From an uncultured Alphaproteobacteria bacterium (lineage in GTDB: Bacteria > Pseudomonadota > Alphaproteobacteria > Bin95): a stretch of 33,536 bases of DNA. Each line of letters begins with the position of its first letter. Within the stretch, counting starts at the first letter, position 1. Below the pieces are notes generated by a model. The model did no database searches. It had not been told where the DNA came from and was given only the letters and a program-made list of their open reading frames with translations. Shown in pieces: positions 49 through 33,536 of this stretch. The position numbers and the translations under genes were made by a program. The stretch is from contig CALAHN010000147.1 of NCBI GenBank assembly GCA_937891825.1, positions 1 through 33,536 on the forward strand, in the 5' to 3' direction.

Positions 49-153
49 CTTAGATCAACCCCACTTTTGGCGGAATCGCCAAAAGTGGGATAAGTTGATC
101 GCTATCAATAAGATAAAGCATGGACTGCGCGTCCACCTGGACGCGCTATGCTC
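49..153 (+). repeat. Bipartite palindromic repeat, copy 1
   Basis: Two stem-loops joined by an AT-rich linker. Hairpin 1: an outer stem GATCAAC (53-59) pairs with GTTGATC (94-100), and an inner 13-bp perfect stem (60-72 with 77-89) closes a GAAT loop; ATAA (90-93) is bulged between the stems. The linker reads GCTATCAATAAGATA (101-115). Hairpin 2 pairs GCAT (118-121) with ATGC (148-151) and GCGCGTCCA (127-135) with TGGACGCGC (138-146). Relative to the copy at 17047-17157, hairpin 2 lacks about five bases in its right arm. It lies 12 bp beyond the stop codon of the SDR gene at 166-948 and could end its transcription. Repeat status is seen directly; function is inferred. Confidence 0.9.
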
Positions 154-165
154 CGGCGCCAGCTA

Positions 166-14980: not shown

Positions 14981-16255
14981 ATGGTCGATCCGCATTCCCC
15001 GTCCGCCGTCATCCGCCGGCACTTCGTGCTGGCGGCCTCGCTGCTGTTCATGGTGATCGGCACCGGCAGCATCTATTTCCTCGTCGTCGCCCTGAAGCTG
15101 ATCAGCGCTGAGTTCGAATGGCCGCGGGTGATCGCGTCGACGGCGTATTCGTTGCTGTATTTCGGCGCCGGCATCGGCGGCATCTTCATGGGCTACGTCC
15201 TGGACCGACTGGGCATGGCGATCCCGGCGCTGGTCGGCGCCAGCATGCTGGGCGGCGGCGCGATTTTGACATCGCTCATATCGAACGAATGGCAGCTCTA
15301 TTTGATTTACGGCGTCATGATGGGCCTCTGCGGCCGCTCCGCCCTGTTCTCGCCGCTGACCGCCAATATCACCCGCTGGTTCGAACATAACCGCGGCATG
15401 GCCGTCGGCATCGTCGGTTCGGGCCAGGCGCTCGCGGGCGCGGTCTGGCCGCCGATCTTCCAGTATTTCTTCGAGGAGATGGGCTGGCGGCAGACATCGC
15501 TCTGGTACGGGATCTTCGCGCTCGCGACGATGTTGCCGCTGGGGTTGGTGCTCGCCCTGAAACCGCCGGCGTCGGCGGAGCCGGATGCGGCGCCGGCGGC
15601 CAAGCCTGCCGGGGGCGGGGCCAAAGTGCGGCCGATCCTGTCGCCGTTGCGCATTCAGGCGACGCTCTCGATCGCGTCGGTCGGCTGCTGCGTCGCGATG
15701 GCCTTGCCGCTCGCCCATCTGCTCTCGCATGTCAGCGATATCGGCTACGATCGGGCGCGGGGCGCGGAAATTCTGTCGCTGATGCTGATCCTGGCGTCGA
15801 TTTCCAGCTTCTTTGGGGTCGGGTTCCTGTCCCGCCGGTATGGCGGCTTGCGGGCGATCTTCGTGTTTTCGTCGATTCAGGCGATCTTCCTGGCGACGAT
15901 GGCCTTTGTCGACAGCCTGACCGCCCTCTACATCGTCGGGGCCTGCTTCGGCATCGGCTATGGCGGCATTCTGCCATGCTATCCGATCATCGTCCGGGAA
16001 TACCTGCCGGCCAGGGAAGCCGGGCGGCGCACGGGCATCGTGATCCTCTGCGCCGGAACGGGCATGGCGATCGGCGCATGGCTCGGGGGCATGCTTTTCG
16101 ACATGACCGGGTCCTACCGCTTCGCGTTCCTGCTCGGCGTCTGGTTCAATATCGCCAATCTGATGATTATCGCCAGCTTGATCGTCCGCGTCCGCCAGCA
16201 GCGCGACAGCGATCGCTCGGCGCTGGTTTTGGCGGAATCGCAAAAAGCCGGATAG
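14981..16255 (+). CDS. MFS transporter
   Basis: A 424-residue major-facilitator permease with about twelve hydrophobic helices and a cytosolic loop in the middle (about 190-220, rich in Ala and Pro). YFGAGIGGIFMGYVLDRLGM after helix 2 is the loop 2-3 signature (G-x-x-x-DR-G), and FGVGFLSRRYGGLRAIF is its counterpart in the second half. The overall pattern, including NRGMAVGIVGSGQALAGAVWPP, resembles the monocarboxylate/oxalate-formate type, so import of an organic acid is a reasonable guess. ATG at 14981 has GGAAG 6 bases upstream. It precedes the SDR gene by 38 bp and is probably co-transcribed with it. Confidence 0.9.
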   Translation: MVDPHSPSAVIRRHFVLAASLLFMVIGTGSIYFLVVALKLISAEFEWPRVIASTAYSLLYFGAGIGGIFMGYVLDRLGMAIPALVGASMLGGGAILTSLISNEWQLYLIYGVMMGLCGRSALFSPLTANITRWFEHNRGMAVGIVGSGQALAGAVWPPIFQYFFEEMGWRQTSLWYGIFALATMLPLGLVLALKPPASAEPDAAPAAKPAGGGAKVRPILSPLRIQATLSIASVGCCVAMALPLAHLLSHVSDIGYDRARGAEILSLMLILASISSFFGVGFLSRRYGGLRAIFVFSSIQAIFLATMAFVDSLTALYIVGACFGIGYGGILPCYPIIVREYLPAREAGRRTGIVILCAGTGMAIGAWLGGMLFDMTGSYRFAFLLGVWFNIANLMIIASLIVRVRQQRDSDRSALVLAESQKAG

Positions 16256-16293
16256 GCTGACGCAATCGTTCATTGCAAGCACAAGGGGGCGCC

Positions 16294-17046: not shown

Positions 17047-17157
17047 TTAGATCAAACCAGTCTTAGGCGGAAACGCCCAAGACTGGATAATTTGATCGAC
17101 ATCAATAAAGTAGAGCATGGACCGCGCGTCCACTTGGACGCGCGGTCCATGCTCTAC
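17047..17157 (+). repeat. Bipartite palindromic repeat, copy 2 (complete)
   Basis: This is the best-preserved copy. Hairpin 1: GATCAAA (17051-17057) pairs with TTTGATC (17092-17098); inside, a 13-bp stem with one A-C mismatch (17058-17070 with 17075-17087) closes a GAAA loop, and ATAA (17088-17091) is bulged exactly as in copy 1. Hairpin 2 is a perfect 23-bp palindrome with a 2-base centre (arms 17110-17132 and 17135-17157). It fills the space between the convergent SDR and TRIC genes and contains the TRIC stop codon. A bidirectional terminator role is inferred. Confidence 0.92.
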
Positions 17158-17774
17158 AGCGGACGCCCGGGGCGGGACTTGTAGGGCGGCAGGTTCCAGC
17201 CGAAGGCGAGCGCGCCGCCGCGAAACCCGAATGCGACCAGCACGCCGACGCCCGCGGCGAGCGGCAATCGGAGGCCCGCCAGATCGGCGAGCACATAGGC
17301 CAGCCCGCCAGCCATCGCGGCCGAAATATAGATCTCCTTGCGCATCAGCACCGATGGTTCGCTGGTCAGGACATCCCGGAGAATGCCGCCAAGCGTGCCG
17401 GTGATCATGGCCATCACGACCGCGATGATCGGTGACCCGGTCGCCAGCAGGCCCTTGTAAGCCCCGAAAACGCCGTAAGCAGCGAGCGCCAGGGCGTCGA
17501 GCCAGAGCAGCCATCGATAGCGGGATTCCAGCAAGTGCGCCCCGAAGAACGTGGCGACCGCAGCCGCCGCGCAGATCGAGATATAGACCGGCTTCTGGAT
17601 CCAGAAGACCGGCACGTCGAGGATCAGATCGCGCGCCGTGCCGCCGCCCATGCCGGTCACGGTCGCGAGAAAGATGAATCCGATGATATCGAGCTGCTTG
17701 CGCGACGCCGCGAGCGCGCCTGTCGCGGCGAACAGCGCCACACCGGCAAAGTCGAGGACGGCTATGGCATTCAT
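17154..17774 (-). CDS. TRIC-type (UPF0126) trimeric cation channel family protein
   Basis: A 206-residue inner-membrane protein with about seven hydrophobic helices arranged as two repeats. Repeat 1 has MGGGTARDLILDVPVFWI (42-59) and repeat 2 has LGGILRDVLTSEPSVLMRKEIY (128-149): the duplicated GG-x-x-RD element is the mark of UPF0126 proteins, bacterial relatives of TRIC potassium channels. Other members have been linked to amino-acid transport, so ion selectivity is open. ATG at 17774 has GAGGA 7 bases upstream. Its TAG stop (17154-17156) lies inside the right arm of the palindrome at 17110-17157, and a second repeat fragment sits 17 bp upstream of its start. Confidence 0.9.
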   Translation of the reverse strand: MNAIAVLDFAGVALFAATGALAASRKQLDIIGFIFLATVTGMGGGTARDLILDVPVFWIQKPVYISICAAAAVATFFGAHLLESRYRWLLWLDALALAAYGVFGAYKGLLATGSPIIAVVMAMITGTLGGILRDVLTSEPSVLMRKEIYISAAMAGGLAYVLADLAGLRLPLAAGVGVLVAFGFRGGALAFGWNLPPYKSRPGRPL

Positions 17775-33232: not shown

Positions 33233-33424
33233 ATGCAGAAAATTCAAAGCTTCATGATCGAAGTGGATGGCGACGCCGGCGGCATCGTGATCGGCGATGA
33301 GCGCGGCTTTACGTTTCATGCATCCGTCCAATGGGCGTGGCCGTTGAACGGCAAACGCTACCAAGCCGTCGAGCAAGTCGAGCGGGAGCTTGCCGCGAAG
33401 CGCCCGGCCAAGGCGGCGCATTAG
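33233..33424 (+). CDS. Small hypothetical protein
   Basis: A 63-residue protein I do not recognise. It has no signal peptide or membrane segment; the central part GIVIGDERGFTFHASVQWAWPLNGKRY looks like beta strands, and the tail is a basic, Ala-rich helix. ATG at 33233 is chosen because a purine-rich GAGGGGGGG lies just before it; ATG at 33176 would add 19 residues but lacks a site. It is divergent from the MBL gene. Its TAG stop (33422-33424) is the first triplet of repeat copy 3, so the element may have replaced the original 3' end. Confidence 0.6.
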   Translation: MQKIQSFMIEVDGDAGGIVIGDERGFTFHASVQWAWPLNGKRYQAVEQVERELAAKRPAKAAH

Positions 33425-33487
33425 AGCATGGCGCGTCCAAGTGGACGCGTGGTCCATGCTCTATCTTATTGATAGCGATCAACTTAT
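33422..33487 (-). repeat. Bipartite palindromic repeat, copy 3 (inverted)
   Basis: In inverse orientation to the other copies. Hairpin 2 pairs TAGAGCATGG (33422-33431) with CCATGCTCTA (33454-33463) and CGCGTCCA (33432-33439) with TGGACGCG (33442-33449); four bases are missing from one arm relative to copy 2. The linker and the first arm GATCAAC (33477-33483) plus TTAT are identical to copy 1 over 26 positions (33462-33487 against 90-115). Beyond 33487 hairpin 1 is not conserved; a different small hairpin (33491-33497 with 33504-33510, one mismatch) stands there. It starts with the stop codon of the small gene. Confidence 0.88.
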
Positions 33488-33536
33488 ACCAGCCTGCGGT
33501 GAGGCAGACTCATTTTCGGGATTCCCAAAGCGTTCG

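Follow-up and report, generated by a model that had tools for sequence, protein, structure and literature searches.

Copies of the element in the window

The window (the whole 33,536-nucleotide stretch analysed here, which is one entire contig of a 4.3-Mb alphaproteobacterial assembly in 163 contigs) carries two full copies of a two-hairpin element, located both by direct reading and with a covariance model, and a third, partly degraded copy on the opposite strand (Table 1). The parts that the first-pass annotation had described, namely a 7-bp outer stem, an ATAA bulge, a 13-bp inner stem, a GAAT or GAAA loop, the ATCAATAA linker and a second palindrome, are present in both full copies, and the change from C-G to A-T between their outer stems is real. 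The spans then given (49-153 and 17047-17157) have been redrawn with borders from TA to TA, at 51-155 and 17048-17156; the 3′ TA of copy 1 has been lost and now reads CG. Compared with dinucleotide shuffles the stability of the fold corresponds to z values of −9.9 for copy 1 and −13.2 for copy 2, the inner stem of the latter containing one A-C mismatch. In most copies of the element four nucleotides (GACC) bulge out of the 5′ arm of hairpin 2; copy 2 is atypical in that its hairpin 2 has become a perfect palindrome. The linker of most copies folds into a further small hairpin (CTATC-AATAA-GATAG), whose formation is in competition with the foot of hairpin 2. At copy 2 a gene of the Gly_transporter family takes the edge of the element as its stop. 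A degraded stretch resembling hairpin 1 (TTTTGGCGGAATCGCAAAAAGCCGGATAGGCTGA) was also noted at 16227-16260, at the extreme 3′ end of an open reading frame (ORF 14981-16255) whose TAG stop lies within it; this is possibly an old copy that has been absorbed into a coding end.

Table 1. Positions of the element copies, their parts and the adjoining stop codon in the window
Feature	Position	Strand	Details
Copy 1, TA to degraded TA	51..155	+	Covariance model match 115.5 bits; direct reading
Copy 1, hairpin 1	53..100	+	Outer stem 53-59/94-100; inner stem 60-72/77-89
Copy 1, hairpin 1, unpaired parts	Loop GAAT 73-76; bulge ATAA 90-93	+	
Copy 1, small middle hairpin CTATC-AATAA-GATAA (consensus GATAG)	102..116	+	Alternative to the foot of hairpin 2
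Copy 1, hairpin 2	114..155	+	Outer stem 114-122/147-155; bulge GACT (4 nt) 123-126; inner stem 127-134/139-146
Copy 2, TA 17048-17049 to TA 17155-17156	17048..17156	+	Covariance model match 111.8 bits
Copy 2, hairpin 1, with ATAA bulge 17087-17090	17050..17097	+	
Copy 2, hairpin 2, perfect palindrome GGACC..GGTCC, bulge copied onto the other arm	17111..17156	+	
Copy 3, linker and hairpin 2 intact, hairpin 1 degraded	33422..33512	-	Covariance model match 61 bits
TAG stop of Gly_transporter-family gene (17154-17774, minus)	17154..17156	-	G from the element, TA from the target

Copy number, covariation and distribution

Searching the same genome by blastn with a 101-nt query gave 40 copies, and a covariance model built from 29 of its own copies gave 147 matches at E values up to 1, of which about 105-110 score above 43 bits (some of the lower-scoring ones are fragments, or one place read again on its other strand). 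Pairing is kept in these further copies, so that neither outcome named in the first-pass annotation as refuting it, a lack of more copies or changes that break the pairing, was observed. In a plain MAFFT alignment of the 29 copies 97% of cells pair and eight pairs change on both sides, although most of these both-side changes reflect a single linked split between subfamilies. The set was widened with three genomes of the same genus or family (G001, CALLKY01; G003, CAJXVF01; and G006) and the metagenome-assembled genome CALMUW01, in all of which the stems differ largely in sequence while the order of parts is the same: YTA, outer stem, inner stem, apical loop, ATAA-like bulge, outer stem, ATCAAT linker, TAGAGC hairpin and TAR. 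In the resulting set of 77 distinct copies, drawn from five genomes, both bases vary in 31 of the 37 pairs, 94% of cells are paired (at most 39% in slid controls), 92 further pair types occur against 65.7 in shuffles and the covariation score reaches 0.464, where shuffles give 0.154 and slid controls no more than 0.086, all in an alignment that was fitted to the model and is thus biased towards structure. The covariation is real but it is not specific to RNA.

With a model rebuilt from this wider set of copies (R2), matches at E up to 0.001 per genome were obtained in 32 of the 385 alphaproteobacterial genomes sampled, representing 26 genera; about 0.4 genomes would be expected by chance at that threshold. 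Clear TAGAGC..GCTCTA borders are seen in most of the matched sequences listed, and pSymB of Sinorhizobium meliloti has five matches below 0.001, most of them bounded by TA. The two-part layout, which had seemed unfamiliar when only the window was read, is therefore not unique to this genome but is old and shared.

Target site and candidate mobiliser

The copies of the window's genome have TA at both edges. Among 90 of them 74 begin with TAG or TAA, the preceding base being C or T in 73 of these; the tetranucleotide at the 5′ edge is CTAG in 56/90 and TTAG in 15/90, and in copies from other genomes it conforms to YTAR in 49/54. Duplication of TA at CTAG is shown directly in Sinorhizobium, for a relative picked up with the same model: the site of a copy on S. 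meliloti pSymB is uninterrupted in S. kummerowiae (97% identical flanks), Sinorhizobium sp. K101 and S. medicae, so that ..CTC CTA-element-TAG GGCC.. stands against an empty ..CTC CTAG GGCC.. (CTAT in S. medicae). Another Sinorhizobium site (L285) had an imprecise empty counterpart and was left out of the duplication claim. For copies of the window's own genome a joined-flank search within the genus gave no two-sided empty site and only one-sided alignments, because the relatives are only about 75% identical. At one such site (L047) the gene stops with TAG at the element edge, and its stop codon in relatives without the element is TAA (G002) or TAG (G006). Sites L036 and L038 present a similar picture.

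In 58/90 copies of the window's genome the stop codon of an ORF of 100 codons or more falls exactly on an element edge. At the 5′ edge such stops were found in 42/74 cases, the remaining two frames giving 27/148, and for the 3′ edge the figures are 24/49 and 27/98; with a cut of 120 codons the corresponding edge stops in other genomes were 18/50 against 11/100 and 19/43 against 8/86. As the element starts with G and finishes with C, a TAA or TAG target reads TAG on either strand and the gene end is kept. Both edges are the stops of long ORFs on opposite strands in copies L061, L067, L071, L073, L078, L257, L265, L277 and L282, which suggests that the CTAG target had been the shared end of two convergent genes that overlapped.

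The best explanation, to which we give a probability of roughly 0.8, is that the element is a non-autonomous miniature transposon (MITE) of about 105 bp of the IS630 (Tc1/mariner) type. It would be mobilised in trans by a DDE transposase of the IS630 family that recognises ends starting GAGC or GATC and inserts into the TA of YTAR, with a preference for CTAG, duplicating the TA. Each end is a hairpin in its own right, which would be read by the transposase or through single-stranded DNA at the replication fork, and insertions into stop codons would survive as TAG is regenerated in every case by the end base G. TA and CTAG are known targets of IS630 (PMC2170065, citing Tenzen and Ohtsubo, 1991).

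The sequence of the ends suggests an IS630 transposase as the mobiliser. The tail of one IS630 transposase is present in more than 50 contig-end copies in G001, ending ..GAATCTGCTCTA, and when this was used as a probe 19 of the 30 alphaproteobacterial loci examined, several of which come from the same genome, had GCTCTA 6-18 bp past the stop of the transposase gene, one reading CATGCTCTA as in the window's element. Full-length IS630 copies in G064 and G041 have TAGAGC...GCTCTA within Y..R sites, and both G001 and G064 are element-bearing relatives in which the putative IS630 partner is present. The sequence common to the element and the IS630 ends is in most cases the outermost 6 bp or so, extending to 12 bp (TAGAGCAGATTC) in G006; the 5′ end of the element in the window's genome is GATC rather than GAGC, the latter being found in CALMUW and G006. 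Seven of nine genomes with the element contain this IS630 group, whereas it is present in 15 of about 106 others (P = 1e-4, phylogeny ignored). The window's own assembly, which breaks at repeats, contains one decayed IS630 C-terminal tail followed by GCGCTCTAG, and an intact IS630 transposase was not found in it. As only this decayed remnant seems to be left, the copies in this genome may be immobile relics.

A second IS630 group is present in G006 (L081, L086, L090 and L093), with the end TGAGTGCGGTATA / TGAGGGCAGTATA after the stop, which is unrelated to the ends of the element, and these copies were set aside as belonging to a different group and not to the partner. The G001 assembly breaks at the IS630 copies already mentioned and also at several other repeated ends (e.g. 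L241 and L239); it is an IS-rich genome whose autonomous elements have been lost from the assembly.

Two other mobilisers were weighed against IS630. Movement by a different TA-duplicating DDE element such as one like IS711, which duplicates the TA of YTAR and is associated with the Bru-RS repeats (PMC2266754), appears improbable as the GAGC end matches IS630 members, some of them in the same genomes, in a comparison confined to IS630 among the TA-duplicating families. We consider it very improbable that the element is of the REP/BIME type, moved as single-stranded DNA by a Y1 (IS200/IS605-like, RAYT) transposase reading bulged hairpins. The ends of IS200/IS605 elements and BIMEs do resemble two bulged hairpins, but a search of genomes of the same family, four of them carrying elements, found no Y1 transposase (PF01797), and mobilisation by RAYT/IS200 was rejected on this ground; furthermore, that system inserts without duplication, which is at odds with a TA duplication and a YTAR target, and there is no unpaired GTAG tag beside the hairpin, the edges being YTAG as target.

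Origin of the paired changes and related repeats

The first-pass annotation took the covariation to mean that the fold is selected, in RNA or single-stranded DNA, or copied as a unit. Dispersal as a unit, with the fold kept across genera, is upheld, but the evidence does not favour a structured RNA. A structured RNA or 3′-UTR element (terminator, mRNA stabiliser or sRNA), selected as RNA and with mobility secondary, would account for the very stable folds and the strong covariation, and the many copies lying straight after stop codons are likely to be transcribed as 3′ ends. RNA-level selection would however tolerate G-U and not A-C, and the numbers of these mismatches are similar (66 and 78, P = 0.36), as they are when read in the sense of the adjoining gene (38 G-U and 30 A-C). 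The gene faces either strand (42 at the 5′ edge and 24 at the 3′ edge), no Rfam family was matched at the gathering score, and arm copying also yields compensatory changes, so that we regard selection as RNA as rather unlikely. (A tRNA control for wobble pairs was dropped as A-C pairs are absent from the ARAGORN bracket output.) Insertion at TA/CTAG, IS630-like ends, strand-symmetric mismatches and copying between arms favour a DNA transposon over a structured RNA.

Copying between arms can be seen in individual copies: in hairpin 1 of L154 the 5′ arm has received a copy of the 3′ bulge and the reverse has happened in L171, and hairpin 2 has been perfected in L151 (copy 2 of the window), L161 and L163. 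Separately, both apical loops are inverted in L149 (G000:C28:18082-18186; ATTC for GAAT and AGGT for ACCT), as if the hairpins had been flipped. The arm-to-arm pattern is what template switching at a quasipalindrome would give, a process known in Escherichia coli (PMC7202029). Taken further, the covariation might be purely mutational, template switching keeping the arms identical while the fold is unselected. The known mechanism, the perfecting of palindromes in both directions and the inverted-loop copy speak for this, but the ATAA bulge, which template switching should remove, survives in at least 75 of 90 copies and recurs in other genera, and across 26 genera the outer stems are retained in the same order; mutation as the whole explanation is therefore possible but doubtful. 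Persistence of the bulge implies that selection or a preference of the transposase is probably at work besides template switching. For the IS630-type transposon, stem identity would then come partly from template switching between arms and probably partly from selection on the ends.

By mechanism the closest analogue would be RUP of Streptococcus pneumoniae with IS630-Spn1, which is of similar size (about 107 bp), intergenic, present in about 100 copies and provided with IS630-like ends at a TA target (PMC2229807); its sequence is unrelated and it is described by terminal inverted repeats and not by two separate end hairpins. Going by the published descriptions of these repeats, the element also resembles the alphaproteobacterial intergenic palindromic repeats RIME1 and RIME2 of rhizobia and others of S. 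meliloti (Osteras, 1995), as well as Bru-RS1 and Bru-RS2 of Brucella, which are palindromic repeats of 103-106 bp reported to be hot spots for TA-inserting IS; the S. meliloti pSymB matches share the fold but little stem sequence with the window's element, and may correspond to annotated RIMEs. TA also flanks the Correia elements/NEMIS of Neisseria. These are likewise short MITE-like stem-loop repeats (PMC2229807) but belong to another lineage and differ in ends and layout. REPs with CGTC-type tags are common in Alphaproteobacteria (PMC3733652), and CGTC- or GTAG-tagged REPs share palindromy with the element but are single hairpins of 20-40 bp with an unpaired tag, absent here; where CGTC occurs in the element it lies inside a paired stem, and it is absent from the CALMUW type. 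The literature searched, from which subscription papers were mostly missing, contained no link of such repeats to IS630, to stop codons or to a single class-wide fold.

Tentatively, all of these alphaproteobacterial copies could belong to one ancient class-wide family of two-hairpin MITEs with RIME and Bru-RS among its members, the end hairpins and bulge being recognised by an IS630-type transposase or by the replication fork and insertion into CTAG stops being almost harmless. If so, transposase substrates would be under secondary-structure selection in a DDE system that is not known to need it. Compensatory changes in dispersed palindromes may stem from copying between DNA arms, and covariation alone is no proof of a functional RNA. 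A repeat that inserts into stop codons and rebuilds them with its own end base can reach 100 copies with little harm, and scattered alphaproteobacterial palindromic repeats of unknown origin are brought under one fold model with a likely mobiliser named.
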